Positions 16,491 to 60,184 of a stretch of 64,000 bases of DNA are shown one piece after another. Under the pieces are notes generated by a model. That model saw only the letters and a list, made by a program, of their open reading frames with translations. It made no database searches and was not told where the DNA came from. How positions within the stretch are numbered: the stretch's first letter is position 1; every line of letters starts with the position of its first letter. The position numbers and the translations under genes were made by a program. Source of the stretch: Owenia fusiformis (taxonomy: Eukaryota > Annelida > Polychaeta > Sabellida > Oweniidae); the NCBI GenBank assembly GCA_903813345.2, contig CAIIXF020000002.1, forward strand, positions 62,001 through 126,000, read 5' to 3'.

Positions 16491-16501
16491 GGAACATCCA
16501 A

Positions 16502-16508
16502 TATAAAT
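16502..16508 (+). promoter_or_regulatory. Candidate TATA box of serpin 1
   Basis: TATAAAT lies 54 bp upstream of the ATG at 16562, leaving room for a short 5' UTR if transcription starts about 30 bp downstream. This is a position-based inference only. Confidence 0.5.
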
Positions 16509-16561
16509 GCCAAGCAAGCTGTGGATTAGATTATATCAGACATAAATATTGTGTAACAAAT

Positions 16562-27262: not shown

Positions 27263-27406
27263 ATGTATAACAAAAGCAATGCAGAATATGAATTATTGAA
27301 TTGCAAAAATGAGTTTCTTTGTTTGTTCTATCTTCCTTGGGTTGGTACTCGAATTTACAATATCACATTTAATATTTGCAAAGTGTGCAATTGGATACAA
27401 CACACA

Positions 27407-30400
27407 ATGGCTCTATTGAAGGCCGTCATAACGTTGACCATTCTTAGCATTTGCTTCAAGCTGAATAACGCCAAGATAGACGGCATCACAATCGGCAAAG
27501 GGAAAGGAAAGGGCAAGGGTGGGTCTATTAAAGAAGCAGGTGGAAATACAGGAGACAGCGAATCGAGCGAGGAGACCAAACTTAAAAAAAGCAACTCTTC
27601 TTCCAAATATGGACCTGGGAAAAAAGCGGTTTGTCCGGACGTAGATCGCTTGACAAAAGCCATAGACAACTTCTCAGTTGATGTGTATAAAGCATTTGTT
27701 AAGAATAAGCAAACGGAAAATGTCATCTTCAGCCCGTTAAGCATTTCAATTATAATGTCAATGGTTATGCTCGGGGCAGAGGGAAGTACTTTAGATGAAC
27801 TAAAGAGGGCATTGCATGTTGGCTCACTTGTTGAGAAAGGCGTTTTACATCAAGCGTACAAGTGCGTAAATGATGAACTTTGGAATGACAGTACCGATAA
27901 CATGGCCTTAGCAGCCAATCGCATATACCATGATATTAGCTTTGACGTCAAGGCAACCTTCATTGAAGACATTAAAACATTTTACAGAGCAAGTGTAAAA
28001 CAATTAGATTTTACAGATATTGAAGAAAGCATGGAAGAAATAAATGATTGGGTAAGTTACAGAACGAACAAATTGATCCCAAATATTCTCAGTGAGGGAG
28101 ATATCGACAGTCTCACAGTAATGGTTTTAGTGAATGCTATATATTTCAAAGGACAATGGCTCGAGAAGTTTGATCCGGCTTCGACCATAGCAGACACATT
28201 TTTTATGAGCCATAATAGAAGTATCCAAGTGGCCATGATGAGGCAGGCGGGCAGTCATCGCTATTACCACAGTTCTGAGCTCAAGGCCCAGTTTGTTGAA
28301 CTATCCTATTCAGCAAACAAGGACTCTGAGACAGTTATGATTATCGTCCTACCCGATGACCGTGGCGGTCTTGAAGAACTAGAAAATACTCTTACTGATG
28401 ACGTTCTAAACACAGCACTGGAAAAACTTGTAAATGTTGAAAAGGCATTTGTTTATTTGCCAAGATTGGCATTCAAATCCAAAGTGAAGCTAAGGAATCT
28501 TTTAAAAGATATTGGGCTAGTAGATTTGTTTTCAGGTAATATAAATTTGAATGGATTGAGTGATGATCCAAGAATGGACATTTCGGAGATAATACACGAG
28601 GCTGCCATTGACATACATGAAGAAGGTTTGTTATGCCCATTATTATGTCGTTGTTTTTATTGTAGAAATATTATAATTGTAGATGCAAGTAGAAATAACC
28701 TTGATTTACGTCATTAAATATTCAAAACGTGGTGATATCATTTGAGATCTACATGTAAAAATACATCTTTGAAAATCTATATCTTTGCAACCATGGGATA
28801 ATGTTAGATAATCACAGGAATACCCCGACAACATCGACATCAGATTTCGTTGTCCAAAATTGCTAACGTAACCGTTTTTAATATCATCAAAGACAATGGA
28901 TCCGTTGTCATGTACCATATCATTAATTAATTATTGATTTAATTTGTAGGTCTTTTTAACGAAGTGAGAACATATTGAACTTAACGATTAGTAAAAATAC
29001 ACTTTTATTGATTTTTGTGCCAAAGGAATTTAATCTACGAATTCTGTTAAACATGCAGTGGAAGAACATTGAAAAGAATATGAACCTTCGTCCGCAATTT
29101 TGGATAACGGAATCAGACGTCTCCGTTGTCAGTGTGTTCCCCGTGGGATAGAAATGTTACAAATGCAATACTAGAAGTGAAAATTATCTTGAAACTTAAG
29201 TCCAAATGCCGAACCAGCGTAAAATATATATGCATCGAGTACTATTTTGAAATGGAATTTAACCTAAAAAGTAGCCTTTCCGATCGAACTCGGTAGGTAA
29301 CATATTTTACCCGGGATTGTATATATGGAAGGTAACAAAGTAGAGATCTTGGACACTTTTCAAATGTTTAATGCATTTTGCCTGTAGGTACAGAAGCGAT
29401 GGCGATGTCTGCACTTGTGTCAAGTCGATCAATATCTGAGCCACCAGTCACCGTTCATTGTAACCATCCTTACATGTTACTGGTCAGGGACAGGTCTAGG
29501 CATGTAACATTATTCATGGGACGAGTAACAAATCCAGAACCACTGCGAACCCAGAACATCGCTGACGATTCAGCGCCACTGAAAAGGGCGTTCAAGATGG
29601 TTAGAGGTAACAGTGTGCCCAAATTCAACTACAATGAACCACCGCCAAAGATGAAGCCAAATGTTGATAAACGTAAAAGTAAGGGATATTTTCGTCACTT
29701 TCATGTTGGGCCTAATTTTGGGTTTTAGGGGCCAACAATCGAGATTTGCAACCCAACATGTGTAAAGGCATGAAATTATAGATTTATAAAGAATTTCGAT
29801 GACATTTGATTCCAAGGCTCATTCATTACGTAGAAAGGCCGTTCGAGTCCGCCAGAACGCTCTTGCTTTTGATAAACTGAACAAAAACTGTGTCATAATG
29901 AAATAAGAAATTCAAGACTATTGTGCAACAATATATAAAAATAGTTTTATATTACATACGAATGACATTTGTAGATCTTGAATTGCTTGTGAATTCGCTT
30001 ATCAAGTCTGTACCTCTTATATTTTTTGCTTTTCTGCCATGTTGATTTTGGAAAAAATAAGATGTCGGATAGACTTCACATTACAAGAGGGCACAGTAGG
30101 CGTATTGCACTGAAAACTAAATAATCTGAAATATATAAATGTCATTCGTGTGCAGTATGAATATGTAGGTTTTCTATACATTATTGCACAATGGCAAATA
30201 AATATGAACGTGTCGCTTTTTGAAATCATGGTTTTCTCCAATTTTGTCATTCTATGAATATTTAGACATGAGTAGTATGTTCACAATGAATAGTCATATC
30301 AACTTAGCAGTTAACTTGAATGCCTCACGATTAACAATTAAACTACATTCGTATTTAAGTTAAAACGAATAAGTGCCGCAATATTTCTTTTAATTTGCAA

Positions 30401-40200: not shown

Positions 40201-43200
40201 TAGTGTTAATATTATGTTAAAGTCCCCGTCTAAAGTTTGAAAATATTTTTTTATCATTCATTTACTAATTGTCATTACTTAAAAAGTTATTCTAGAGATT
40301 TTTGAAAGAAAATATTTTTTGAAAAAAAAGTTGTGAGCATTTCATTTCTCAAATATTCAAATTTCCCGCCATTTTTCAAAAAATTTGACATTTTTTAATC
40401 ATCAAATATTTCTTAATGCATTTCAAAAAAGATTATCTTTTTAACACCAATGCAAAGATTGATCAAAGGACACACTATTTCAATAATAAAATGCCATATT
40501 TAATAGGCCACTTTAATGTTTTAGCATATCAAAAATATTTTGAAACATTAGGGGCGGGGTCAAAATATCGATGTTCATATGGAGACGAAAGTACTTTCGC
40601 GAGGGGGGGGGGGGGGAGGGGGTTTTGGGCACTTTCGTTGACCAAAAAAACATCGATAATTCGGATCAGATATACAAAAAATAATTGGACTTACCCACTT
40701 TTTCTGGCGCTATGTTCTGATAAAAAGCCTTGTTTTCAATAGTTCGTGAGCTTTTTTGTGTGATAGGTCCAAAATATCGGTAGATATAGACGATAATTCG
40801 ATCATTTTTCAAATAAATTCCGTACTTTTCCCTCCTCCTTTTGAAGAGTTCAATGCAGTTAAATTGCGAACGTGTGTTAATTCACCGTAATAATAACCCG
40901 GCAAATAGGATACGATTATTAATCAATGTTTTTTTGAAGTGACCTAAGCTTTCGTCTAGAGGGGGGGTGGGGGGGTTGTTGTCCAAACGAAATTACTTTC
41001 GTCTCCATATGAACATTGATATTTTGACCCCGCCCCTTAGTGATGTCACAAAGGTAACAAAAACTTTTTGAAAAAAATAGAAAATTTTTTTTCGATGCCA
41101 ATCTTTTCTGAATATGCTAGACTTCAATAATATACCAATGTTGATTGTCTAACCAGGTTAAAAGGAAGAATATATTATGTTTTAGATATCATTGTACCAT
41201 TGGTTTCTATGAGAACTAGAATTTTTAAATGCATTTTTCTCGGAACCATTTTCATGCACTGATAAGTTCATTTCTTGCTTATTTATGAACTGATTTTCTT
41301 AATTTTTTCAGCAAAAACATGCGTGGATGAATGCTATGCATTGGTATGAGTTTTGGCTAATTAAAAGATATGTGTGACCTCTGAAAGTTAGTTTTAAATA
41401 AATTCACAAATTTTGGAACAAAAAGTCTATCAAAAACCACTTTTTGAAATTTAAAAAAAAAGTTTCACATATCACACTTTGATAACATTGGGTAAGACTA
41501 CAATATAAGCCAAAGTGGTTTAAACTTTAGATGGGGACTTTAAGTGTTAATATTATGTTTAGCGTTTTACACTTTGTATATTCTACTGCCAATTTTAGTC
41601 AATCTTGGGCTTTATTTCTGATTTGGGTTCAACAGAAAAGCGACTCACTTGCTTGTAAAACTAATTCTTTAAAAACGTCCAACAATTAAATGTTAAAATT
41701 AGATGCGTTAATTTCCAACTTACAACTCTCATTTTCACGTTTGCCGTAACCTTACATGACTGCACATTAAGTGATGAACAGCATATTCATAGATTTGATC
41801 AAAAAATTTGAATGCTAAAAAGTTAGGCAAAGTCTTTCTATCATGATATTTCCCTGTGGTCCTTACGAAAAATATCGACAATATTGTTAATTTTAGGATC
41901 ATTAGGTTTCGGACAAATGGGATATGGACCAATAAGATTCTGACTTTGGGATTCGGACGATTGGGATTCAGATCAATTGGATTCAGATGAATGGGATCCA
42001 GACGATCGGGATTTGGACGAATGGTGTGTCCTCTTGGCTAAGAGCCATGCATCCATGTGCAAAGTAAAATTTGAAATCATGGAAATATCAGTTATCTCTG
42101 TTTGTTTCAGATGAACATCATCAATTCTTAACTTCAAAATCGGTCATCAAAGGAGACATCTCTCAGAGTATGAAATGGAAGCCATTTCTTAAGTTGTACT
42201 TAAATGGTTTTTACTGCGATTTACTGCGCTTCGACATTGCTGTTATGTATCCAGTTTTTTTATTTTCTTTCCAGAATGTTAATTCCTGTTCAGACTCTAG
42301 TCGAAACTGATGGTGAGGAAATTCTAAATAGCCGGGATGACAAAGGACACACTCCTGCTCACTGGGCAGCCCTTGGGGGTCAGCTACAAATCCTCAAGTT
42401 CATTCTAGACAATAAGGGGTTAATAAATGAACCAAGTGACAATGAACTAGGGCAACGTCCCATACATTGGGCATGCGTCAATGGACATGTGTCAATAGTG
42501 GATTTACTGCTGCAGAAAGGTGTGTCGATTGATGAAGTAGACACAAAAGGATGTACTCCTCTTATTGTTGCCTCACAGTATGGCAAGACTGTATTAGCTG
42601 GCTACCTTATGGGGAAAGGAGCACGACTCCAGATAACTGACAAAGATGGTGATAATGCTTTACACTGGGCGGCATTTAAAGGTTTGTATAATTCAAGTGC
42701 TGTAAGAGGGGACTTCATAGCTGAACCTTCCTATATCTTCATAGATGGCCTTAGGTTAACCTGTGAATTCAGGGGTATTTTCCCCTCTCTGTCAGGTTAT
42801 TAACTAATATTACATCGTACAGGGTCAAATCTGTTTTCCCCCTTAACTTGTTTTAGTTTAGAAATTATAACGTACTGGGTAATTATATATCATTTTAAAG
42901 GGAATCCAATTTGCTGATCAAACACCAGAGTGATGACATTTTTTTGTTGCACTTAAGTTTTTGCATTCAGATTGTGACATTTTGTCACGTTAATACATTC
43001 TTTGTTAATACCAAATTTCAGAGTGATGATATACAAATTGTTGCACTGAAGTTATTGCATTCAGATTGTGACATTTTGTCATTCCTTGTTAAAAGTTTGT
43101 ATAATGCCATCAAAATTATCAGACAATTAATACAGTTACTATGATTATTTTCACAAAGATTGATATTATCTGGGTCTTTCTGTTATGCTGTCTTGTAGTG

Positions 43201-46200
43201 AAGCTGTACACAAATGAACATGTACCACCAGTCCTATAGATTTTAATTGCATTAATTCATGTTCTGCATGTTGGTTGTAACATTGATAATGAATAGAAAT
43301 CAATTCAGGTTGTTCAATTCTGGATTAAAATAGAATTTCCTTTCATAATGTTTACATATTCTGGTCACATTTCTCATGTTCCAATTATTGGAAAATCTCC
43401 TAGTCTCCGTTATAGGCATATTAATTAGCAGCCCTAAAGGAAAATTGAAAATTTGCCTGTAGACTGTGAAATAGCCTGTGGCTACCTGTAGAGCTCTAGG
43501 CAAAAATCTGAGATGAAATTTGATGAAGATTTATTGAAATCTATTTGATTCTGATTAAACCTGACTAAGGTCTTGGCTGCTTGCAAAACCATCCAGCAAA
43601 CTAAGATTATCAGTAAATCAACATGGGATGATTCATTTAACATGGAATATTATTGATTCTTCACTGTTTTACTGCTACAATATCAGCACATTGCTTAGCC
43701 AAGCAGATAGTCTCTTGTATCATATGTTGGATTTTCGTGTGAAGTCATATACAAAAATTGTTATCTTCACGAGGATCTTAATTGAAGCGTTGCAGAGTTT
43801 ATATTTCCTGATTTTGTTTTTAAGTGAAGTGAATTTGTAGAAATCGAATGAACTACAAACATGGCAATGGAGAAAGAGTTTTTTTTAAGATTGTTATGAT
43901 AAACATGGCAATGGAGAATCTGTTTCTATTGTTTTTATGGATTTCCAAAACAAACAACTCACATTAGATGAATGAATGAAAGTAGAATTTGACATGTGAA
44001 TTGAAATATCATTTTTTAAACAAAATGAGAAATAATTCATATTTTTGGAAACTACTATGAAACTACAAATGGAAATAGGAAAAATGAAGAACTGGCAGAC
44101 GTGTGCAATATCCATACTGATACTCGTATATGATATTATATGTTCTATTATATCATTACTGATATAATTTCTGCATGTTCAATTCAAGTCAATGAGATAT
44201 TGCCTTGAGGCAACCAAACAAAAGTCAAAAAGTTACATGAAGTTTATTCTATGGATTCATGTCATTTCACTCTACATTTATTGGAATTTATGGGAATCTA
44301 CTAGTGCCTCAAAGATATCAGTTTCAAACTTGAAATAGTTATTCCAGTAACCTTGTTATAAATAAAATGTCTACGTCAGAGATTTTCATCATCTTTCAAA
44401 GAATAAGAAAGTTTTACTGAACCATTGACTATGTTTTATGAACTCATTATTTGATTTAAAGGAATATTCCTTGCCAGACTCTTTCTCTCTTGATATGGTA
44501 GCTATAATCATATATATAGTTTCCATATTTAGCAAAACATGGGAAAATGTTTTAATATGGTCAATATTGATCATTTAAAAATCTAGTGCTTATTTCCAGT
44601 GAGCTGCCATCTTTTAAGATTTCTTGCAGGAAGTGATGTCATCAACTCTCAACTTCTATAACCTTGCCCATAACAGTATAGGGAAGTAGCACAAAATCAC
44701 TTCTAGACAAATGATCATTACTTTCTGGGCAAAAATATTTTCAAGGCTTGTTAACTTAGAATAAAAGAAGAGATTTTCAGAAGGATTAAATAAGATTCAA
44801 AGTTGAAAAAGAATATTTAGCTGGTTTTGTAATTCTTAATAGCTCCTCACCCAATGCTATATGCAAAGTTGAGAGTCGATGACATCACTTCCTGTGTGAA
44901 ATTTTAAAAGATGGCAGCTTACTGGAATTGAGCATCACATTTCTAAGTGATCAAATTTGACCATATCAAAACATTTTTTGTGTGTTTTTTCTAAACATGG
45001 CAAGCATATATATGGTTATAGCTACCATATGAGGAGAGAGATGGTTTGGCAAGGAATATTCCTTTAAATGAATCCTAATGCTGAGATGGAGATATTGAGA
45101 CAACAGGCAACAGAGCACAAAATCATTGATCCAATTATTGTTTCTTTTTCAGTAGAAATAATTTTGGGTTAAGAATCTGTATGTATCAATATTAACAAAG
45201 TTAATAATTATGAGGTGACAATGACGTATCACTGAGAAAACTTTTATCATGAATAGTATAAAAGAAGATTGTATCGTTAATAGTGTTAAAAAATCATAAA
45301 CTGCAATAAGAAAGACTAAATGATCATGAACTTCATGTGAATATAACAATTCATAAGAATCTAGAATGACTGTTCGATTGAGAAAGAGAAACCCACATAT
45401 ATTAGAACAGGATTGGAAGTTTTGCAAAGATGTGCTGGGTTTGAAAGTTAATAAACAGTCGCAGAAACATGCATTACTAAGATATCTATATTCTGAGGAA
45501 GGTATTCAGCCCTTTTTTGATTTTTAATAATACAACAATTTTTCAATTAACTTGTGATAATGTATTCATGTCAATAGTTAGAGAAATTGATGTTAGTTTT
45601 CAGTTTATTTTCAGCAATCTAACATGACTTAATTGTATTTCAGGCCAGACAGAGTTAATGCGACTTCTTATCTACTCTGGGTTTAACCCAAAACAGCCTG
45701 ATAACTTCCAACAAACCCCCCTTCACCTGGCATGTATAAATGGAAACCTTGCAGGAGTGAAGGAACTCTGTGAAAATGTAAGTATTTATATGATACTTGG
45801 GTCCGGTTTTGGAACTGTTGATGAACATACGATTTGGTCGCAAGTAATTGTTCGTCAAAAAGTAGACGATGGTTTTCTCAGAATCGTAAGTTACGATCGT
45901 ACCAAATACAAACCTTTGAGAAGAGAATACAACAAGAATGACAATTCCATTTAGTAGATCTTAGCAATATAACACATACAGCTGTATGGTCCATACTTCA
46001 TTCCTATAATCCTGAGTTGCTTGGTTCAGCCAATATTTGTCTAATGTGTGTTTATTCAAATATGATCCTGTAATATTGATGTTACACTTTAAATTGTAGA
46101 TAAGATTGATAAATAACCATCACATAGAGTAGAATAAACACAGGAAATGTGTATGTTTTAGCTGAATGTATTACCATGGACTGGACTTTTATACCTGTAA

Positions 46201-49200
46201 CTAAGGCCTGCTGTTATTGAACTGCAGCCAGTGTTACCTGCCTTTATTTAAATATGACAAATAGGGGGGGGGGGGTTAAATGCCCTTAAGTAAGTGACTT
46301 TATCTGAATATATTCAATTTCATTCTATTAGGGTGAATGAGGGGTCACAGTCAAGTATATCATAAAATTCTATTTTGGGACAAAATCAACATTTTTAACC
46401 TGTCCCTACACTCTAATTTATGAGAGTTTTTCTCACCTCACATTTTCCTCCTTACAATTAGTCACATTCTTGTCATAAGGGATGAATAAATCCTATGCTT
46501 TTTATTATTATTACTAAATCACATTCTTGTCATTGGGGGTGAATAAATCGTATGCTTTTTATTATTACTAAATCACATTCTTGGCATTAAGGATGAATAA
46601 ATCCTATGCTTTTTATTACTAAATCACATTCTTGTCATTGGGATGAATAAATCTTATGCTTTTTATTACTAAATCACATTCTTGTCATTGGGGATGAATA
46701 AATCTTATGCTTTTTATTACTAAATCACATTCTTGTCATTGTGGATGAATAAATCTTATGCTTTTATTACTAAATCACATTCTTGTCATTGGGGATGAAT
46801 AAATCTTATGCTTTTTGTTACTAAATCACATTCTTGTCATCGGGGATGAATAAATCTTATGCTTTTTATTATTACTAAATCACATTCTTGTCATTGGGGA
46901 TGAATAAATCCTATGCTTTTTGTTACTAAATCACATTCTTGGCATTAAGGATGAATAAATCTTATGCTTTTTATTACTAAATTACATTCTTGTCATTGGG
47001 GATGAATAAATCTTATGATTTTTATTACTAAATCACATTCTTGTCATTGGGGATGAATATATCTTATGCTTTTTATTACTAAATCACATTCTTGTCATTG
47101 GGGATGAATAAATCTTATGCTTTTTATTACTAAATCACATTCTTGTCATTGGGAATGAATAAATCTTATGCTTTTTATTACTTAATCACATTCTTGTCAT
47201 TGGGGATGAATAAATCTTATGCTTTTTATTACTAAATCACATTCTTGTCATTGGGATGAATATATCTTATGCTTTTTATTACTAAATCATATTCTTGTCA
47301 TTGGGGATGAATAAATCTTATGCTTTTTGTTACTAAATCACATTCTTGTCATTGGGGATGAATAAATCTTATGCTTTTTATTACTAAATCACATTCTTGT
47401 CATTGGGGATGAATAAATCTTATGCTTTTATTACTAAATCACATTCTTGTCATTGGGGATGAATAAATCTTATGCTTTTTATTACTAAATCACATTCTTG
47501 TCATTGGGGATGAATAAATCTTATGCTTTTTGTCACTAAATCACATTCTTGTCATTGGGGATGAATAAATCTTATGCTTTTTATTACTAAATCACATTCT
47601 TGTCATTGGGGATGAATAAATCTTATGCATTTTGTTACTAAATCACATTCTTGTCATTGGGGATGAATAAATCCTATGCTTTTTGTTACTAAATCACATT
47701 CTTGGCATTAAGGATGAATAAATCTTATGCTTTTTATTACTAAATTACATTCTTGTCATTGGGGATGAATAAATCTTATGCTTTTTATTACTAAATCACA
47801 TTCTTGTCAGTGGGGATGAATATATCTTATGCTTTTTATTATTACTAAATCACATTCTTGTCATTGGGGATGAATAAATCTTATGCTTTTTGTTACTAAA
47901 TCACATTCTTGTCATTGGGGATGAATAAATCTTATGCTATTTATTTTATTACTAAATCACATTCTTGTCATTGGCAATGAATAAATCTTATTTATGCTTT
48001 TTATTACTTAGTCACATTCTTGTCTTTAGGAATGAATATATCTTTTGCTTTTTATTTTTTTCAGGATGGAGTTGAGATTGAGCTTCCAGACAAAAATGGC
48101 AAAACTCCCATAATGTTAGCCATGGGACGCAAACATGAAGACATTGTCATTTACCTGAAGAAAAAGGCTCAAAATAAAAACAGACTAATACCTAAGATCG
48201 ACTTCTGGTGAGAAATAGTTAACTTCATAATGAGGCCCTATTATTGCCAACCATTATCCATTTTGTCTGTATTTTCTCCCCTACTCCAATTAGCTCTCAG
48301 TTTGGCCTTTAGTATACACTTTACTCAATACATTCTTGTCATTTTGCTTTACTCGATACATTCTTTTTATATTGCTTTTAAATTTGACATAAAATTTTAA
48401 CTTTTGAAGGTCAAGGCTTACAGTCATTAAACTGGGTCACAGATATTATCAAGGTTTCTTAAAGTTGTAGACTTTGGATCAATATTTTTGGATGAAATTA
48501 AGAAAATAAACAAACCTAAATTTAAGCTTAATTCATGTACTTTAAACATGATCAAGGTGAAAATTTCCCTTACTTCAGATTAAACCAATCATTTTCAAAA
48601 CAATATTTTCGAAATGTGGAAGGTTTATGTGGGCCTCTCGAACAAATGATTGATAATCAGAAATGTTAAAAGAAAAATATTTCAAGGAGATTCTTATGGA
48701 TAATTTTATTTAATGCCAGTAGTTTACCTGTAGTGCTAAAGTAAACAATGTTTCTTTTAAATCAAAGTGTCACATATATGGATACAAATCAAAGTGTTAC
48801 ATATATGGATACAAATCAAAGTGTTACATATATGGATACAAATCATAGTGTTACATATATGGGTACAAATCAAAGTGTCACATATATGGGTACAAATCAA
48901 AGTGTGACGTATATGGGTACAAATCAAAGTGTTACATATATGGATACAAATCAAAGTGTCACATATATGGGTACAAATCAAAGTGTTACATATATGAATA
49001 CAAATCAAAGTGTTACATATATGGATACAAATCAAAGTGTTACATATATGGATACAAATCGAAGTGTTACATATATGAATACAAATCAAAGTGTTACATA
49101 TATGGATACAAATCAAAGTGTTACATATATGAATACAAATCAAAGTGTTACATATATGGATACAAATCAAAGTGTTACATATATGGATACAAATCGAAGT

Positions 49201-52200
49201 GTTACATATATGGATACAATTCAAAGTGTTACATATATGGATACAAATCAAAGTGTTACATGTGGGTACAAATCAAAGTGCTACATATATGGATACAAAT
49301 CAAAGTGTTACATATATGGGTACAAATCAAAGTGTTACATATATGGATACAAATCAAAGTGTTACATATATGGGTACAAATCAAAGTGTTACATATATGG
49401 GTACAAATCAAAGTGTTACATATATGAATACAAATCAAAGTGTTACATATATGGATACAAATCATAGTGTTACATATATGGATACAAATCAAAGTGTTAC
49501 TTATATGGATACAAATCGAAATGTTACATTTATGGGTACAAATCAAAGTGTTCCATATATGGATACAAATCAAAGTGTTCCATATTTGGATACAAATCAT
49601 AGTGTTACATATATGGATACAAATCAAAGTGTTCCATCTATGGATACAAATCAAAGTGTTACATATATGGATACAAATTGAAGTGTTACATATATGGGTA
49701 CAAATCAAAGTGTTACATATATGTATACAAATTATAGTGTTACATATATGGATACAAATCAAAGTGTTCCATATTTGGATACAAATCATAGTGTTACATA
49801 TATGGATACAAATCAAAGTGTTCCATCTATGGATACAAATCGAAGTGTTACATATATGGATACAAATCGAAGTGTTACATATATGGGTACAAATCAAAGT
49901 GTTACATATATGTATACAAATTATAGTGTTACATATATGGATACAAATCAAAGTGTTCCATCTATGGATACAAATCAAAGTGTTCCATATATGGATACAA
50001 ATCAAAGTGTTACATATATGGATACAAATCAAAGTGTTACATATATGGATACAAATCAAAGTGTTCCATCTATGGATACAAATCAAAGTGTTCCATATAT
50101 GGATACAAATCAAAGTGTTCCATCTATGGATACAAATCAAAGTGTTACATATATGGATACAAATCAAAGTGTTACATATATGGATACAAATCAAAGTGTT
50201 ACATATATGGATACAAATCAAAGTGTTACATATACATGATTGTTTTCTCTTTTTCAGGGCACTCTTATTTGGTCCCCCAGGAAACAGTAAAGGAGCTCTG
50301 CTATTCTTCTTAGTGAATATTTTATTTTGGGGATACCCCATGTACATAATTAAGGTACAGCATTACACATCAATATTTTATCCATACCTATTAAAATTTG
50401 CCTTATTATTCTGCTAAGTTAAAATAATTATTTGGTGACTTTGTTAAAAGATGAAGTATCAGAGCTTTGAGATCATCTGTTTTTAGTGCCAACGGGAGTA
50501 TTCAGTTAAATGCCCATGGGTGCTACTGACAAAGAATAGTGAATAAATAAAATTAAATCTAATGAAATTAAAATGAAATTGTACTTTAAATGAAAATATT
50601 TGTTTTGTAGGCTATTCCATATACTTGGTATGATCTGCAAATTCTCCATGTCATATTTATTGTGTTGAACGTCATTATGTGGATCTCATTGTACCACTGT
50701 AACACTATAGACCCAGGGTACTTGCCTAGGAATATTCCAGAATATGATCTGGCCATTAAACAGGTAGGTGGAGTTCTCAATTCTAAAATTGACTTAAGTG
50801 AGGCCTTTTTGTTCATTTTGAAATCTTGTTGGCCAATCTTGTGATTCTTAGTTTTATGTCACTTATAAAGTGAAGACAATGTTTGGTGTAACAAATGGTA
50901 CATTATTGTGTGTTGCAACCATGCATTCACATTTTCACATTATAATGTTTATTATAATAATATTTGTATCATTCAGACAAACATAAATGAATTGAACATT
51001 TTTCATTAATGATATTTCTTGGAACATGAAATATTCTATGCATTACCAAATTAAAAGTTCAAATGATTAAAAGCTGGCAATAATTTCAGGTTGCACATTT
51101 TGATGAATGGAAACAAGGACGTAATCCACTAAGTCGACTTTGCCATACATGTAGAACAGTTAAAACAATCAGAAGCAAACATTGTAAAATATGTAACCGA
51201 TGTATTAAACAGATGGATCACCATTGTCCTTACATATACAATTGTGTGGGCTACAATAACAGGTGGGTCTACCATTATGGTTGGATTTTCTCAAAAGGGG
51301 AGTAGGTCTGGTAATCACATGTGTCACAACTGTTCTTTAAACATGACTGTGCTCTAATTGAATTTCTCAACCAATCAAAATGCAGCATAGCCAATAAACA
51401 TTGTTCTCTATTTCTCCATAGATGCACGACTGTGCTCTATTCACACACCTTGGAATGGTGAAAATAGCAGCAAGTTTGGTTATTTCATTTTCATAAATCG
51501 CTGATTCTCTGAACAATCTTTTAATTTTCTATGTTTGAATTTGAATAAATAATGATAGGCCATTCAATATGGTGAAGTTCTACACTCGTTGGACAATGTC
51601 AGTGCAAATGCACTCAGCTTCGGTTTGTGCTTTGTATGACATTCAGTCTTACTCGTGCTGAATTTCACCATATTAAATGGCCTATCATTATTTATTCCTT
51701 AAACAAATCATTCTTAAAACCCATTAAGATGAATAACTCATTCAATCCAGTAGTTTCAAATTAAGAAATTACTGATTCATCATCTTACAATATTTGCATG
51801 TTTGAATGTGACACATGTACGAGTACAACCTGCTTTTTACCTTTATGTTCCCTTTTTATGCTTTCAATGTTGTGAAAGCCGAAGTTTATCAAGATTCGTT
51901 GCTATGGCTACATTGATGCTGCTTGTCCAATTATAGTATCAGTTTTGTTATTAAGTAATTTAGTAAATAAGTAAATTAAGTCTCAGTTTTCTTTACTATG
52001 GTAATTAAAGTTAATATATAGATTCAGCAAATTCAAGTTCAGTTTATTGCATTAATTTAAATATAATTTAAAATATTTCTTGAGCATGGGAGACATGTTG
52101 AAGAGAGATTTGGTTTGAGAAGGACAACCTTGTCATTCTCAGTTTATCTTAAATTTTTTGAATTAGAAATGTTATAGTCACACAGCATTGTCTAAATGTC

Positions 52201-55200
52201 TTAAATCTACTTGGGAGATTGAGACTACTCCTATATTATGGTCATATCTCCAAGACCCACAAAAAATACAACGTTGTAGAGAAGTTAATGAAATCAATCC
52301 ATTCATTTTAAAGTTAGAGAAAAGAATATGTATGTAAAGAGAATATATTGAAACAGCCATTCTACAATTGAATCTCTCTTCTCAAGTCTGCTTTTCTCTG
52401 ACTTTACATGTTTCAGTATTGTTGCATTGTATTTTAAGTAAATATACAATTTGTAAATCTGTCCTATATATTATTTGGTTTTCACTATAGACATACTTGA
52501 TTCTTCTAGTATTTGGTATGCATGAATTGGGCTTTGGTTATTAACATTTCACCAGTGTTTACTATGTTTATGTATGCCACTGTTATGATAAAGTGATAAT
52601 GGAAAGAGGTTTGCTTGAGGCATATGGACTTTCTCTGAGATTATTAAACAATCATAATTCAGCCAGACTCTAAATGAAAAGGCTTGGAGTTAACACAGAC
52701 TCTAAATGAAGAGGCCTGGAATTAACACAGACTCTAAATGATGAGGCCCTAAATGATGAGGCCTGGAATTAACACAGACTCTAAATGATGAGGCCTGGAA
52801 TTAACACAGACTCTAAATGATGAGGCCCTAAATGATGAGGTCTGGAATTAACACAGACTCTAAATGATGAGGCCTGGAATTAACACAGACTCTAAATGAT
52901 GAGGCCTGGAATTAACACAGACTCTAAATGATGAGGCCTGGAATTAACACAGACTCTAAATGATGAGGTCTGGAATTAACACAGACTCTAAATGATGAGG
53001 CCTGGAATTAACACAGACTCTAAATGATGAGGTCTGGAATTAACACAGACTCTAAATGATGAGGCCTGGAATTAACACAGACTCTAAATGATGAGGCCTG
53101 GAATTAACATTTGTTGATGAGATCTGGACACCTTCTTTGGAATCTGCATCAACCCATCTATTAAAAAGGACTCTTTAAAATGTAAAGTTTTTCACCATAC
53201 CTTTTCTATATAAGTCAACTTGTAGTACATAAAAAATGATCATTTTAGACAGGATTCACTTTTCAATATAGGAACATTGCTACAACATTCACATGGGACC
53301 ACAGACACCTTGTATAAATGTAGTTTTACTTATTAAAATCTAATTGTTTTGGTTTATTAAAGTTAAGTTTGTCTTTGCATGAAGCATTGAAAATCTGTTG
53401 ATACATTGATTCCTCTTCAAACTGAGTCTGATTGACTTTTTCAATGATCATTGTACTTTTCTTAGAGGTAATATGTTGACCTAAAAGGCATACCTGCTTC
53501 CATATGATCATTGTACTTGTCTTAGAGATAATAGGTTGACCTAAAAGGCATACCTGCTTCCATATGATCATTGTACTTGTCTTAGAGATAATATGTTGAC
53601 ATAAAAGGCATACCTGCTTCCATATGATCATTGTACTTGTCTTAGAGATAATATGTTGACCTAAAAGGCATACCTGCTTCCATATGATCATTGTACTTGT
53701 CTTAGAGATAATATGTTGACCTAAAAGGCATACCTGCTTCCATATGATCATTGTACTTGTTTTACAGATAATATATTGACCTAAAAGGCATACCTGCTTC
53801 CATTGCCCAAAAAGTTCCCACAATCCTAAATATAACTGACTTCAGCAGTGCCTTATGCTCTCTCTCTTGTAGTCTACTCTTTCATTGCAGATCAGTTTTT
53901 ATTCAATTAATCATACATAAGTACGTGGTGGACATTAATCCTGTTTAAGTTCAAAACACAATCTCTTTCTCTAAATTTAACCCAAATGAACACAATTGAT
54001 GGAATATGAAGAACTTAAAAATATCCATTTCTGCTACTTTTGGCATGAATCAGAAATGAATCATATTGTTTGGAATATAGTGCTGCTCCATTTATGTGCC
54101 AACTACTATTTTTAATGATTACCTGCATGCATATGATCCTCTCTAGTAGATATAATGTCTTGATCTACAGTCCTTGCATGTTCTATCATAATACTATGAA
54201 ACATTCATTTTATCATAACTTCAAATCAGAATGTTCATATTAAGGTCAAAATACAAACTGGTGTTTATAAAATGCATTGTTATTATAGCTCTTTATCTTC
54301 TATTGAAACAATCAGGTACTTTTTTAGAATATAAAAATCTTAAGTTTGATTAAGGTCACTTAGTTACATTATTCTTAACTAAATCATTCTCTATTTCTAG
54401 GGTATGGTTCTTTGCTTTTGCGGTGTCCACCACGGTCAATGTCCTCATAACTCTGTTCTTCATATATGTGATCTGGTCGATGATGGGATTTGACATCTGG
54501 CTTGTGATTGGTTTGTTAGATGCCTTATTAGGAACAGTCATAGGTGGTGTTGTCACAGGCATGACGGTGAGTTTAAATAACCAAAGCTCATTTCATGTGT
54601 TTTGTCATTTGTCCAGTTTTGTTCTATCATTCAAAAGTGAACCTTGACCAAGTCACCATATCTGTCTGTGTTTATGACTTGAGCTGTTTTCATAATCTCC
54701 CAACTCAGTGTTTAGCCACCTGAAATCAACATTATCCTCCAATTTGAGGTGCAAAGTATGTGTACAATTTGAGGTGCTGGTTTTAAATTCCATGTTTTAG
54801 ATCTAAATCCCTTGCATTTAAAGTTAGTTACTTCTATATAAAAAGTATGATGGAACACAAAACTGGACATTCGACAATTACATCATATTTGTTCATCACT
54901 AACCCATAAACTCTTCTCTTTTATTGCAGATTTGATCGAACACATTTATCAGAAACAAAATCAGACCTATATGCTGATTGAACTGATATTCATTCTCTTA
55001 TAGGGGTTGAACATTTGCAATATACGCTGATATTCATTCTCTTATAGGGGTTCATTTGCAATATTTTGCTGTAGTTGCCTCCTCAATGGACTCATTTCTT
55101 GGTTCATTGGTGGTGTGTGTTGGAGCATGGAGGGTTTTCCTTTCAATGTTGACTACGTAGTAGGTGTGCTCATGCATGGCCTCTTCTTTGAAGGAGTGGC

Positions 55201-58200
55201 TATAGTATTAGCTGGTTCAACGGTAAGAATACTTCATAGGGTATATCGCCTCCTCTTGTGGAGATTGTCCTTGAATGGTAGGGTTCAGGGTCAAAAATGC
55301 ACATTTCCTTATTGGTCAAGTCGAATCGTTAGCTATAGGATCCGACTGGGGTAGACTCGAAGGCCTAAACTAGTTGATAATCAGCCCATTGTTCCTCCCC
55401 TGATGAACAGTGCTTTATTTGACCCTTATGAGCCTTTGTCCCCTGAGAAACCTGCCATTCAATGATGACCACTTTTGGTTATTAGTATGATTGCCCTGAA
55501 CCTATAGGGCACTCAACCTTGCCTTTTGCAGACTAAGATGCTTGCGCTGTAAGATAGAACCCTCCTATAGATTTGCTTACATGAGCAAACACATATCATT
55601 AATTTTATGAATTTATATTACAGGGGTCATAAGCCATTTTTACTCACATCATTGTATGCCTTTTTTATAGGGGCTAACTTGCTACATTCCTACTAATATC
55701 ACAGCATGCCTTTTATTTTAGGGGCTCGTTTGCCATATTTTGCTGTGCTGCTTTCTTAAATGGCTCCCTTGCATGGTTGATTAGCTTAAATTGTTGGCGA
55801 ATGGATGACTATCCCATTTTTCATCCCCCAGATTATATGCTGGGTGGACTCATCCATGGCCTTGTCTTCATGGCCTTAGCCACTTTTTTGGCTGTTAGTA
55901 CGGTAAGGCAACAAGCAAGTGTGTCCTCATCCATCTTGTCTCACCTTAAAAAGATGGAAAAAATCTCGATCTGTGTTTATCTATTTTTCTTGGCTGCTCA
56001 TTGTTTAAATTAGATCTGTTGTAAATTATATAAGATTTGTAGATGTTATAGCCCTGACTGTTAAAACTGCAAGCTCTTTAACATTAATTAACAGCTGCTT
56101 TAACTTAACCCATAAACCTCATTAATTTTGGCATTTTATTTTGATATTTGATTTTTGTGTTTTTGTTTTACTAATCCTTCGTTTTTAGGTGTTGCAGAAA
56201 ATCCAATAAAACCATACTAATTTGTAATATTTTCTCTTATAAATAACAAGCACTAACATTTGCAGCTAATAATGCTGATATTATTCATCAAGGTGAAGGG
56301 ATGTTACATATTAACCTTGCCTAATGGCTATTATTTCTCATGGCACCTGGCTGGCTTTGTAGGTATTCATTCTTTGGATTCTGTGCTTGTGTGTGGCTGA
56401 TGGGTCTCATCACATGGGTTATGTTGTACAATGTGTGGGCAGAAGAGGGCTTTCCCTTGTGGTGCCCTGACTATTTCATTGCTCTCATCCTACATGGAAT
56501 CTTCTTTCAAAATGTTGCCACTTGCTTAACATTTGCCACGGTAAGATGGAGGGATGTAAAGTTGTAGTTTCACCCATCACATCAAATATTATGTGGAAAT
56601 CTGTATGAAATTATACAGTTTCACATGTCACATCAAACAATATGTGAATATCTGTATGAAATTATACAGTTTCACCCATCACATCAAATATTATGTGGAA
56701 ATCTGTATGAAATTATACAGTTTCACATGTCACATCAAACAATATGTGAATATCTGTATGAAATTATACAGTTTCACTTGTCACATCAAATCTTATGTGA
56801 ATATCTGTATGAAATTATACAGTTTCACTTGTCACATCAAATCTTATGTGAATATATGTATGAAATTATACAGTTTCACTTGTCACATCAGATATCAAGT
56901 GAAAATCTGTTTGAAATTATACAGTTTCACTTGTCACATCAAAGCTTAAATGAACATATGTATGAAATTCACTCGTCACATCAAATATCGTGTGAACATA
57001 CATATAAAATTATACAATTTCACTTAATGTCACATCAAATATTTCGTGAACATCTGTATGAAATTATACAGTTTACTTGTCACATCAAATATAATCACAT
57101 ATTGTGGGGGAACATTCCATATTTACTCAATTTGTTTACATTAATGCAAAATAAAATTGACCATTTTATAAAGATTGGTGACCTTATCCTATGGAAATGA
57201 CTAAATGAAGATTATGTTTCACAGCAAGTTTGGATGGTGATACTGTAGAGCTTAGCAGCTTTTATTCTAGTCCTCCATGAAATGAACAGGTCAGTGTCAA
57301 TCGTTTAAGGTCTAACTGTACGATTTCAGCAGTTTAAAAGATTCAATGCAAGTCTTAGTTCAAGATTCATTGACCCATTTCATAAATAACACTGATTCAG
57401 ATGACCCATTCTGTAATAACAAGTTAATACGGAAAGGTCACCCACAGTACATGTAATGTGAAGATCTCTAGTAAATTACCCATTGCACTTAGTCTATCCC
57501 AGTGTGCCACATCTATCCCAGTGTGCCACATCTATCCCAGTGTGCCACATCTATCCCAGTGTACCACATCTATCCCAGTGTGCTATGTCTATCCCAGTCA
57601 GTGTGCCACATCACATCTATCCCAGTGTGCCACATCTATCCCAGTGTGCCACATCTATCCCAGTGTACCACATCTATCCCAGTGTGCCACATCTATCCCA
57701 GTGTGCTATGTCTATCCCAGTGTGCCACATCTATCCCAGTGTACCACATCTATCCCAGTGTGCCACATCTATCCCAGTGTGCTATGTCTATCCCAGTGTG
57801 CCACATCTATCCCAGTGTGCCACATCTATCCCAGTGTACCACATCTATCCCAGTGTACCACATCTATCCCAGTGTGCCACATCTATCCCAGTGTACCACA
57901 TCTATCCCAGTGTGCTATGTCTATCCCAGTGTACCACATCTATCCCAGTGTGCTATGTCTATCCCAGTGTACCACATCTATCCCAGTGTGCTATGTCTAT
58001 CCCAGTGTACCACATCTATCCCAGTGTGCCACATCTATCCCAGTGTGCCACATCTATCCCAGTGTGCCACATCTATCCCTATGCAAATCTGCCTGCAAAG
58101 TCTTCACTTGTTAAAGCCACTAATTTGAATAGCACCAAATTCTGAACTTTTTTCACAACTTCTTGATACTCTGCTGTGTGTGATTAGTATATAGTTATCC

Positions 58201-60184
58201 CACCAAATACAGATTGATGTATTAAGTTCAAATTTTGTTAGCTGGTGCTCTTGTCAAGGAGCAATTCTTAACATAACCACTTACTTCAAAATGGCCACAA
58301 TAATTCGATAACTCAAATAGACTGGCATTCAACTTTGTCTAATGGGCCATGTCTAAACCACGTAATTGTTAGTGAATTTGAAACATTTCAGAGGCCATGA
58401 CTTACAGACAATGAAACTGTGGTTTGCATAGCAACTTTGTGCATTGACAGAGGATATGACTTTTATTCAATTTTGCTCTATTCTGAAACTTCATCAAAGA
58501 AAGTGCATTTTTGTAAAAAGTAATTTTTTTATAACTCTATGTTGGTATTATTTTGTTTTTCAATCAATATCATATTGTCCCTTGGGATGAATTCAATATT
58601 CAGTCCCTCCTAGATAACCCTATTTATCCTATGCAGAGTAGAGTTTTAGGGAGGTAAGTTGTTAAGATATATCCCGTATCCTGATTTTGAGGTTTCCATA
58701 TCCAGAACCTCCATATCTCCCACCATATCTCCCGCTTTGGTGCATATCTTCCCGCTTCGGTGCATATCTTCCCGCTACAATGTATTTAAAATTTAAAAGT
58801 GAAAATGCAATACAATGACTTTGCATATGAATGATTTTTACATCTTGTACTATTGAAATGGCCATATGCCCCTGAAAACTCTACTTGGTATAGGATAAAG
58901 CAGTTATGTACGGTTGGTTTGGATATTGGGTCCATCCCTCGTGAGATATGCAAATATAACCTTCGGTCCCTACAGTCCCTAACGTAGATATGTATATCTC
59001 CCTTTGGATAAACCCCATATCCAAAACCTCCCAGTACATAACCATTATATATGCATGATGTTGATGTGATCCAATGACTTTCAATTGTACTGTAACCAAT
59101 GAACATTACTAAGACTAGAGGAATTCCATTTAAAGTTTTGTATTATCTCATATTTGCAGAAAGATGATAGAATGAGGCTGCCCTTGCATCATCAATGATG
59201 TAGCTTATAAGTAAAAATGATGACACAGTTTGCCATATTTATAAATGGATATTCAGAACATTGCTTAATATTTTATTTATTAGCCTTAGGCTACTCTAAT
59301 TAGATGAGTGCTTTGTGCACATGTTGTCTTGTTTGTTGATTGATTTCAGCCACATGATACTTATATCCACATGATTATCATATGCAAATGATTTAAACAT
59401 TGACTTCACATATCCTTGTATATATACACTATTAATACATAGCAAACTTCTATAATTGTAAATTTAACAGATAAGGAAAATTAAGTTTATCCTTTTCATT
59501 GACTTTTAGCTCTAAAGTATATAGTTTTATAATTTGTAGAATAATGTGTAATATGATAAATAAAAAAAAACTGAAAATCATATTGAAATGTTTTTAAGTC
59601 TGGGTATCAACTAGAAACGGAGACATTTTGTTTCAAGAATTTTTATTTTCTTGACTTTATCACTTTTATCCTTCTCTGGCACTCATGCAGTGTGCAGATT
59701 CCAGTTTTGAAATATGATTGATTATACCTAAGAAAAACAAACAGGCATTGTTTGGATAATTACAAAACAATTCGCTTGCTAAGGAAATGACGACAGTTTC
59801 TCAGAGTCAAATACGAAGGATAAAGTTGATAAATCAAAAACAAATTCTTATGAAAATCTTCAACCGGAAGTCCTGCCACATTGAAGTAAGACATAATGTC
59901 TTTGTTCCCAGTTGATCCCCATTGTTTAATTGCACTCATAAAGTGATGGTGTTACTGATTATTTAAAACTGTCTTCAATTTCATTGCAGTTATTCCATGC
60001 AGCTTTCAATCTCACAACAAACGAGCGCATTAACAAGAAACGTTATGACTATCTCAAAGACGGTAAAGGCAATTATTACAACCCATTTAATCGAGGATTT
60101 AAATCAAACATGCTGGAGTTCTTTCATATAAAGAGAGGACTGACAGAGGATGAAGTGGAATACTTAAATGTTCAGTGTGTGTAG
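37277..60184 (+). CDS. Ankyrin-repeat DHHC S-acyltransferase (TIP1/PAT24-like)
   Basis: The constant exons are 37277-37422, 42275-42681, 45644-45777, 48065-48207, 50258-50354, 50611-50763, 51090-51262 and 59990-60184, plus one of four alternative exons (54,401-56,540). All junctions are GT-AG and in frame; products are 537-542 aa. Six ankyrin repeats (about residues 70-265) precede TM1 (about 288-308), TM2 (about 320-338) and the DPG motif (343-345). The cysteine-rich domain reads CHTC...HCKICNRCIKQMDHHC, with catalytic Cys406. The alternative exon supplies TM3 and TM4. The last exon holds TTNE (the TTxE motif) and NPFNRG, then the C-terminus. The family transfers palmitate or other acyl groups to protein cysteines in Golgi or plasma membranes, with ankyrin repeats selecting substrates. 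DHHC is followed by PYIYNCVG, with Tyr where Trp is usual. The layout and VETDGEEI and LHWAAFKG blocks look closer to plant TIP1/PAT24 than to animal HIP14; this is from memory and untested. Confidence 0.93.
37644..39248. mobile_element. Fold-back element in acyltransferase intron 1, interrupted
   Basis: The left arm 37644-37820 and right arm 38716-39248 are inverted repeats, sharing for example GCTAAGTAGACACACGGTAA and TTCATTGTCATGTTTGGCTG. Both outer ends begin CAGTGTC. The right arm is interrupted by another palindromic element at 38869-39229. The inner 900 bp is unique and non-coding, with a hairpin at about 37,841-37,874 and clustered CACGTG/CACATG words at 38,593-38,652. Confidence 0.85.
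38869..39229. mobile_element. Palindromic MITE nested in the fold-back element
   Basis: Ends CACTGCTTCAAAGGCAAGCA and its exact inverse enclose arms of about 130 bp. The core matches the MITE at 29,921-30,191. The left arm of the host element (near 37,667) preserves the uninterrupted sequence, giving an empty site. TA precedes the left end and AA follows the right, consistent with a TA duplication plus one substitution. Confidence 0.87.
40221..41539. mobile_element. TTAA-flanked element, 1.3 kb, non-coding
   Basis: AGTCCCCGTCTAAAGTTT at the left and AAACTTTAGATGGGGACT at the right are inverted, with one mismatch in 18. Both ends are flanked by TTAA (40217-40220 and 41540-41543), the duplication used by piggyBac-type transposons. 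The interior has no transposase and is interrupted by a second element. Confidence 0.78.
40551..41036. mobile_element. PIF/Harbinger-like MITE nested in the TTAA element
   Basis: Ends GGGGCGGGGTCAAAATATC and the inverse are part of about 50-bp inverted repeats that include TTCATATGGAGACGAAAGTA. TTA flanks both ends (40548-40550 and 41037-41039). G-rich ends with a 3-bp TTA duplication fit PIF/Harbinger. Long G runs lie inside both arms. No coding sequence is present. Confidence 0.78.
42840..44455. other. Acyltransferase intron 2, first part
   Basis: Nothing is recognised apart from a short direct repeat near 42,920-43,085 (CAGAGTGATGA and GCATTCAGATTGTGACATTT twice). Confidence 0.5.
44460..45063. 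mobile_element. Palindromic TTAA-flanked element, 604 bp, intron 2
   Basis: The ends are AGGAATATTCCTTGCCA and its inverse, with arms of about 200 bp (44460-44660 and 44870-45063) sharing TTTTAAGAT/ATCTTTTAA and GTGATGTCATC words. TTAA flanks both ends (44456-44459 and 45064-45067). The outermost 10 bases are themselves palindromic (GGAATATTCC). It is non-coding and distinct from the element at 40,221. Confidence 0.85.
46458..48055. repeat. 51-bp minisatellite abutting acyltransferase exon 4
   Basis: About 31 units contain ATCACATTCTTGTCATTGGG and GATGAATAAATCTTATGCTT. The last, diverged unit supplies the pyrimidine tract of the 3' splice site of the exon starting at 48065 (CTTTTTATTTTTTTCAG). 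Confidence 0.93.
48759..50234. repeat. 27-bp minisatellite in acyltransferase intron 4
   Basis: About 54 units contain CAAAGTGTTACATATATGGA. The length is a multiple of three, so a nonapeptide NQSVTYMDT can be read for long stretches on the + strand and an unrelated repeat on the - strand. It ends 23 bp before the exon at 50258. Its position inside an intron and its openness on both strands argue against coding. Confidence 0.94.
51543..51697. mobile_element. 155-bp MITE-like hairpin in intron 7
   Basis: 34-bp terminal inverted repeats with one mismatch include AATAAATAATGATAGGCCAT and its complement. The interior is short and non-coding. The target duplication is not resolved. Confidence 0.75.
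52670..53110. repeat. 32-bp minisatellite, intron 7
   Basis: Units TTAACACAGACTCTAAATGA plus TGAGGCCTGGAA are spaced 32 bp. Some units carry an extra CCTAAATGATGAGG. Confidence 0.9.
53455..53800. repeat. 60-bp minisatellite, intron 7, 6 units
   Basis: The unit contains AAAAGGCATACCTGCTTCCA and TATGATCATTGTACTTGTCT. A 165-codon - strand frame is a product of the 60-bp period. Confidence 0.92.
54401..54566 (+). CDS. Alternative exon A (TM3-TM4 hairpin)
   Basis: 166 nt, entering in phase 2 and leaving in phase 0. With AG from exon 7 it encodes R, then VWFFAFAVSTTVNVLITLFF, a short loop containing WSMMGF, a second hydrophobic run and GMT at the end. The 3' splice site is TCTATTTCTAG and the 5' site is ACG/GTGAGT. 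It is the most diverged of the four but shares the Phe pair, Asn and WSM.GF positions with exon B. Confidence 0.87.
55048..55222 (+). CDS. Alternative exon B (TM3-TM4 hairpin)
   Basis: 175 nt, phase 2 to phase 0. It encodes GSFAIFCCSCLLNGLISWFI, the loop CWSMEGFPFNVDY, a second hydrophobic run with MHGLFFEGV, and GST. The splice sites are CTTATAG and ACG/GTAAGA. A partial duplicate of its 3' splice site lies about 45 bp upstream. Read after exon A it would hit TAG in the ninth codon. Confidence 0.88.
55722..55902 (+). CDS. Alternative exon C (TM3-TM4 hairpin)
   Basis: 181 nt, phase 2 to phase 0. It encodes GSFAIFCCAAFLNGSLAWLI, the loop CWRMDDYPIFHPPDY, then a hydrophobic run with IHGLVFMAL, and VST. 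The splice sites are TTATTTTAG and ACG/GTAAGG. Two diverged copies of its 3' splice-site region lie upstream. It is closest to exon B. Confidence 0.88.
56363..56540 (+). CDS. Alternative exon D (TM3-TM4 hairpin)
   Basis: 178 nt, phase 2 to phase 0. It encodes YSFFGFCACVWLMGLITWVM, the loop VWAEEGFPLWCPDY, then LHGIFFQNVATCLTFAT. The splice sites are CTTTGTAG and ACG/GTAAGA. The 51-bp array begins about 35 bp after its donor. Confidence 0.88.
56575..57095. repeat. 51-bp minisatellite next to alternative exon D
   Basis: About 10 units contain TGTATGAAATTATACAGTTT and CACATCAAAT. Two overlapping open frames across it are repeat artefacts. Confidence 0.9.
57494..58078. repeat. 19-bp minisatellite, last intron, about 30 units
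   Basis: The unit is CCCAGTGTGCCACATCTAT with variants GTACCACATC and GTGCTATGTC. 19 is not a multiple of three, so the same heptapeptide-like blocks appear in all three + frames. This is not coding. Confidence 0.95.
58905..59060. repeat. Dispersed repeat, second copy
   Basis: It matches 32,640-32,815 in the same orientation (ATCCAAAACCTCCCAGTACA and flanks). A weaker relative lies at 58,665-58,770. Confidence 0.55.

Follow-up and report, generated by a model that had tools for sequence, protein, structure and literature searches.

Can one DHHC S-acyltransferase gene exchange half of its membrane core by exon choice? The question is raised by a 64,000-nucleotide (nt) stretch of the annelid Owenia fusiformis genome (contig CAIIXF020000002.1, positions 62,001 to 126,000), called the window below, which looks eukaryotic in carrying a multi-exon gene. 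This locus is best explained as an ankyrin-repeat DHHC S-acyltransferase gene with four transmembrane (TM) segments, in which the exon for the TM3-TM4 hairpin, with its short lumenal loop, appears to have been tandemly duplicated to four copies, here called A to D. Mutually exclusive use of the four copies is the best and most economical reading of the genomic DNA, and we consider it probable.

Anatomy, homology and reading frame of the four exons

The gene's DHHC exon lies 5' of the cluster and its last exon 3' of it. Each member is recognized by its phase, its borders, an open frame and a leave-one-out profile score that was reached by 0 of 2000 shuffles.

54401..54566, + strand: alternative hairpin exon A, 166 nt; leave-one-out profile 22.5 bits
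55048..55222, + strand: alternative hairpin exon B, 175 nt; leave-one-out profile 76.4 bits
55722..55902, + strand: alternative hairpin exon C, 181 nt; leave-one-out profile 60.7 bits
56363..56540, + strand: alternative hairpin exon D, 178 nt; leave-one-out profile 57.0 bits; two predicted helices

The starts of the exons are spaced 647, 674 and 641 nt apart. Each exon has AG before it and GT after it, completes a split Arg codon (AG/G) at entry and exits in phase 0. All four lengths are 1 modulo 3. An initial annotation of the window had listed four tandem exons, and its coordinates, lengths and phases were all correct on recomputation. It had also assigned a TM3-loop-TM4 hairpin to each exon, in agreement with hydropathy, by which each of the four encodes two membrane segments.

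Any one of the exons alone gives an open frame to the stop at 60184. The products of the full gene model are 488 (A), 491 (B), 493 (C) and 492 (D) amino acids long. Every multi-exon combination is truncated (11 of 11 two-, three- and four-exon joins), and in all six two-exon joins the stop lies within the second exon, as annotated. These double-inclusion stops were considered as proof of exclusivity and rejected as weak. Once the lengths are 1 modulo 3, they are near chance expectation: synonymous codon resampling (5000 trials) places a stop in the second exon in a mean of 5.35 of the 6 joins, and in all six joins in 71% of trials. The informative facts are therefore the common length class, the common phase and the homology. 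Skipping all four exons shifts the frame and also leads to a stop, as had been claimed, at position +139 of the 195-nt last exon. Because this stop falls in the last exon, the usual rule of exon-junction nonsense-mediated decay (NMD) would not remove the message, which would probably escape and give a protein without TM3-TM4. The further claim that exactly one exon restores the frame stands for single inclusions, but A, B, C and D joined together also restore the frame length (4 x 1 modulo 3), and it is the stop in exon B that intervenes.

The exons had been called homologous, and the leave-one-out profiles bear this out for each of them. The shuffles used in this comparison were segment-preserving, so that TM-loop-TM composition was kept. 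Pairwise protein identity ranges from 11/56 (A-C) to 31/59 (B-C). Global alignment gives z scores of 6.1 to 18.3 in five of the six pairs, with the score reached by 0 of 1000 shuffles; the A-C alignment is weak (z 2.4, reached by 19 of 1000). A scan of six-frame ORFs (open reading frames) of at least 15 residues in the window returned the four copies and no fifth, the next match having an E value of 0.78. GC content is 0.44-0.45 in the four exons versus 0.32-0.40 in the surrounding introns.

Synonymous sites are saturated among the exons (synonymous divergence, pS, 0.67-0.80), and nonsynonymous divergence (pN) is 0.31-0.56. The ratio pN/pS is 0.42 for B-C (bootstrap interval 0.29-0.62) and 0.58-0.84 for the other pairs, among them B-D (0.58, interval 0.38-0.84), A-B (0.67, 0.51-0.88) and A-D (0.66, 0.50-0.88). 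The interval lies below 1 in four of the six pairs, and every exon belongs to at least one such pair. We read this as pointing to old duplications of which all four copies have been kept protein-coding, with caution for their recent history. The initial annotation had proposed that mutually exclusive splicing yields four enzymes. What is directly established, namely the anatomy and homology of the exons, the arithmetic of their frames and the constraint on their coding sequence, favors that proposal, and its argument from stops adds little.

Single inclusion and its alternatives

Mutually exclusive splicing would use the common partners on either side of the cluster. The pre-mRNA would be spliced from 51262 to one of the four acceptors, and the donor of that exon would be joined to 59990. 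One exon would be included at a time: two or three would shift the frame, four would meet the exon B stop, and such messages would be exposed to NMD. The outcome would be four full-length enzymes with common ankyrin repeats, TM1-TM2 and catalytic center, half of the membrane core being different. By analogy with known relatives, the ankyrin repeats would recruit substrates, and the hairpin swap would alter the acyl-CoA (acyl-coenzyme A) pocket and the membrane contacts. As a default reading, frame shift and NMD, together with splicing factors, would enforce single inclusion.

Several observations weigh against this account. Exclusive splicing is likely but unproven, as it is read from DNA and not from RNA junctions. 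The introns between A and D are 481, 499 and 460 nt long and all sites are GT-AG, so neither a steric mechanism nor U2/U12 incompatibility is supported. A docking-selector scan combined seven candidate docking regions with three selector sets, over sequence outside the repeat arrays and some long-intron stretches. In none of the 21 tests did a common helix rise above shuffles, 11 to 40 of 40 shuffles reaching the best helix. The summed docking score near 52530-52537 is high (with the three selector sets, 1, 3 and 1 shuffles out of 40 reach it), a signal that goes back to one inverted repeat pairing with a single intron. The pyrimidine tract of exon D is weaker (9 of 15), with two constitutive acceptors lower still (7 and 8). 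The pN/pS intervals of A-C (0.64-1.09) and C-D (0.46-1.03) include 1, and saturation of pS conceals how far each exon has been constrained on its latest branch. Nor does Pfam clearly separate real from scrambled hairpins. Searches found no relative in viral contigs (isoform D query) or plasmids and no orthologue among prokaryote genome contigs, in collections that hold almost no animal DNA.

Two candidate lines of evidence were discarded. The Pfam DHHC score (PF01529) had been tried as proof that the hairpins are DHHC-like, and it proved unspecific. The four isoforms score 73.3-83.7 bits (A 81.1, B 73.3, C 83.7, D 83.2), and the same protein context with scrambled hairpins scores 54.9-85.8. 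With one shuffle and one reversal per hairpin, the shuffled and reversed scores are 85.8 and 64.1 for A, 54.9 and 66.1 for B, 62.2 and 74.9 for C, and 76.8 and 81.1 for D. The real hairpin is thus ahead in seven of eight paired comparisons, by a margin down to 2 bits, and lower in one. The sole match in the prokaryote contigs, 24 residues in a Poribacteria contig, lies inside a 596-residue bacterial ORF without other DHHC match and was put down to chance.

A variant that overlaps with mutually exclusive splicing places exclusivity in mRNA survival. Splicing would be loose, NMD would clear the faulty combinations, and the unproductive output would tune the enzyme level. We hold this variant to be a real possibility, although one with less than an even chance; its probability overlaps with that of exclusive splicing, and the odds given to the readings do not sum to one. 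No physical exclusion mechanism was found, which suits it. The premature termination codons of the two-exon messages, which end 148, 118 and 70 nt upstream of the last junction (in B, C and D), also fit NMD. Of the extra acceptor-like sites before B, C and D, 13 were tested and 13 give truncated frames, as the variant would have it. Published clusters of mutually exclusive exons (MXEs) bear on the variant from the other side. Non-triplet length is common in human MXE clusters (377 clusters, 60%), and reads joining two exons occur in 83 of these 377 (PMC5740500). This leaves room for physical exclusion elsewhere, but the point is weak, as decay can hide reads.

The extra acceptor-like sites may be decoys. 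Before exon B, at 54983-55064, the 3' splice site and first bases of the exon are repeated just upstream, with 26 nt identical and 44 nt apart. Before exon C, at about 55600-55740, two degenerate copies of its acceptor and first bases (55624 and 55671) were seen by eye. In the short introns between A and D, the two-copy 44-nt repeat ahead of B is the sole tandem repeat reported.

It is also conceivable, but unlikely, that one or two exons are used and that the others are decaying duplicates, open by chance. All four were identified in genomic DNA; exon A stands farthest from the other three (pN 0.50-0.56), and the weaker pyrimidine tract of exon D would suit decay as well. However, the four frames and eight splice borders have stayed intact although synonymous divergence is saturated, and for every exon at least one pairing has a pN/pS below 1. 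Under neutral simulation, only 6.6-10.1% of copies still have an open frame once divergence reaches 50%. Free cassette combination of the four exons in functional proteins is highly improbable, as no supporting point was found, all 11 multi-exon combinations are truncated and a message lacking all four is frame-shifted, so that full-length products are excluded by frame.

The enzyme and its acyl-CoA pocket

The gene model was assembled on the + strand from splice borders and phases. Its 5' end is uncertain and the start may lie farther upstream. Seven exons are common to all isoforms.

42275..42681, + strand: first ankyrin-repeat exon, with the gene's 5' end uncertain; the joined protein matches Pfam Ank_2 (8.6e-42); splice borders and phase
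45644..45777, + strand: ankyrin exon 2; phase-compatible join, ORF open
48065..48207, + strand: ankyrin exon 3, leading into TM1; phase-compatible join (TG/G = Trp)
50258..50354, + strand: TM1 exon; hydropathy peak at residues 241-259
50611..50763, + strand: TM2 exon with DPG motif; hydropathy peak at residues 269-287, DPG at residue 294
51090..51262, + strand: catalytic cysteine-rich DHHC exon, common 5' partner of the four alternative exons; C-x2-C-x9-HC-x2-C-x2-C-x4-DHHC-x5-C complete; the constant part by itself scores 58.7 bits with Pfam DHHC
59990..60184, + strand: last coding exon and common 3' partner, with TM4 end, TTxE motif, C-terminus and stop; TT.E at residue 433 (isoform A), stop at 60184

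We take the cysteine motif of the DHHC exon to be the zinc-binding pattern of the DHHC cysteine-rich domain (CRD). The CRD, DPG and TTxE motifs are all intact in the joined protein. It has four hydrophobic regions, two before the CRD and two after it (hydropathy threshold 1.4); in isoforms B and D the TM4 region comes out as several overlapping hydropathy windows.

The layout of N-terminal ankyrin repeats, DHHC-CRD, DPG and TTxE is that of zDHHC13 and zDHHC17 (HIP14). The ankyrin part matches the structure of the HIP14 ankyrin domain (3eu9, 2.4e-25), although 59 other ankyrin chains rank higher in the same list. Six TM domains are predicted for zDHHC13/17 (PMC8059564), whereas four hydrophobic regions are found here, in a model that may be incomplete at the 5' end. 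The four alternative hairpin exons are a further difference from zDHHC13/17.

What the hairpin might do can be judged from human DHHC20, in which the acyl-chain cavity is formed by the four TMs (PMC9105814). In that enzyme Tyr181 of TM3 pairs with Ser29, and the ceiling consists of Ser29, Val185 and Ser217 (PMC9105814). The residue equivalent to Tyr181 distinguishes zDHHC3 from zDHHC7 (PMC8059564). Of the four positions named in connection with this ceiling, the hairpin contains three. As in DHHC20 (6BML; PMC9105814), whose acyl pocket is lined by TM3 and TM4, Phe is found at Cys+15 and Cys+18, counted from the catalytic Cys, in all four exons. The ceiling positions differ from DHHC20. In A/B/C/D, counting from the catalytic Cys, Tyr181 corresponds to N/N/N/M and Val185 to T/S/A/T; counting backward from TTxE, Ser217 corresponds to A/G/G/G. 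This mapping is ungapped and provisional, since the HMMER and MAFFT alignments are gapped here. The catalytic Cys and the second Thr of TTxE are 77, 80, 82 and 81 residues apart in A to D versus 85 in DHHC20.

The D hairpin was also folded alone, with an alignment of four rows (hairpins A to D). The predicted fold has two helices, at residues 2-27 and 35-58, with a mean predicted local distance difference test score (pLDDT) of 81.7 and a predicted template modeling score (pTM) of 0.51. From the sequence features of the hairpin we infer that isoform choice would change the acyl pocket and the membrane surface, the ankyrin part and catalytic center being constant. With three DHHC20 ceiling positions inside the exchanged hairpin, the acyl selectivity may vary among isoforms. 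Some pairs could still share a chain-length preference, because Asn occupies the Tyr181 position in A, B and C.

The constant DHHC exon (51090-51262) reads DHHCPY, with Tyr two residues past the catalytic Cys. DHHC20 has at this place a conserved Trp158, described as a cavity gate (PMC9105814).

MXE clusters as such are well known, among them those of Dscam, the voltage-gated calcium channels and SLC25A3 (PMC5740500, PMC9741552). They are likewise tandem homologous exons of similar length and the same phase, non-triplet, coding for the same protein stretch and often found in genes for membrane proteins. The present cluster differs in lying in a DHHC acyltransferase gene, in exchanging the whole TM3-TM4 hairpin of a lipid pocket, and in having been recognized from DNA. 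The nearest published case among the matches listed is C. elegans dhhc-4 (PMC13247117), a DHHC gene with a frame-shifting, non-triplet alternative exon under cell-type regulation. Unlike the exons described here, that exon is a single cassette with no homologous set; it alters the disordered C-terminus and leaves the membrane core untouched. The initial annotation was aware of no earlier example from this enzyme family. In keeping with this, the matches listed in the open-licence literature, as far as their available text goes, include no mutually exclusive or duplicated exon cluster in a DHHC enzyme. As far as searched, then, the kind of exon cluster is known and the DHHC gene family is new for it.

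The exon A donor and other features of the window

One long-range pairing was found within the gene, between the intron upstream of the cluster and the donor of exon A. The bounds of both arms are approximate.

52510..52551, + strand: intronic arm able to pair with the exon A donor region, a lead only; inverted repeat, duplex -40.0 kcal/mol
54566..54605, + strand: second arm, made up of the exon A donor and the intron sequence after it; G/GUGAG inside the predicted duplex

At its core is an inverted repeat of 22 nt (52521-52542 with 54576-54597; 91% complementary), and the extended duplex, predicted at -40.0 kcal/mol, spans the exon A donor. The donor A region reaches -41.5 kcal/mol versus a mean of -24.5 (standard deviation 4.3, minimum -38.8) in 250 control windows drawn at random, some of them overlapping or repeated. 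None of the 250 is as strong, although the tail of the distribution is populated, by windows within exons C and D at -37.0 to -38.8 kcal/mol. For the B, C and D donors the values are -27.3 to -28.8 kcal/mol. The ungapped duplex score was reached by 0 of 60 intron shuffles (2 of 500 in a longer run) and by 0 of 150 shuffles of the other arm. The other three introns have no comparable pairing, 37, 58 and 54 of 60 shuffles reaching their score. The duplex, seen in a single genome sequence, could keep exon A silent, and is offered as a lead only.

A broader proposal may be sketched, which we consider doubtful. The four TM3-TM4 hairpins would be four acyl-cavity ceilings, with four chain preferences, under one ankyrin receptor. 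Exon A would be off by default, with its donor buried in the 2-kb long-range duplex with intron 51263-54400, until freed by a helicase or an RNA-binding protein. Exclusive use of the four exons, for its part, could give one enzyme four fatty-acid pockets of different shape. The choice of fatty acid and the choice of protein by DHHC enzymes are usually studied across different genes or in point mutants (examples in PMC8059564). Here a natural swap would replace the pocket hairpin alone, four times, on a constant enzyme, and acyl selectivity would become separable from substrate choice.

Elsewhere in the window, two tandem serpin genes lie on the + strand (16487-17671, 24568-24837, 27263-28717 and 29372-29728; pairing inferred from order). 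In each, a 3' ORF of its own carries the last 50 profile positions (Pfam Serpin 321-370), which include the reactive loop. Endonuclease-reverse transcriptase retrotransposon ORFs (20783-24036, - strand) separate the two parts of the first serpin. The ORF at 21967-24036 (- strand) matches RVT_1 (1.2e-26) and Exo_endo_phos_2; its neighbor at 20783-21997 (- strand) has no Pfam match at 1e-5. Rfam and tRNA scans (ARAGORN, bacterial setting) were empty. Just downstream of the DHHC exon, two 52-nt inverted repeat arms (51543-51594 and 51646-51697; 85% complementary, 51 nt apart) have the look of a small foldback element. Minisatellite arrays at 48759-50234, 52664-53109, 53444-53803, 56566-57092 and 57493-58079, with periods of 27, 32, 60, 51 and 19 nt, fill the introns of the gene on either side of the exon cluster.

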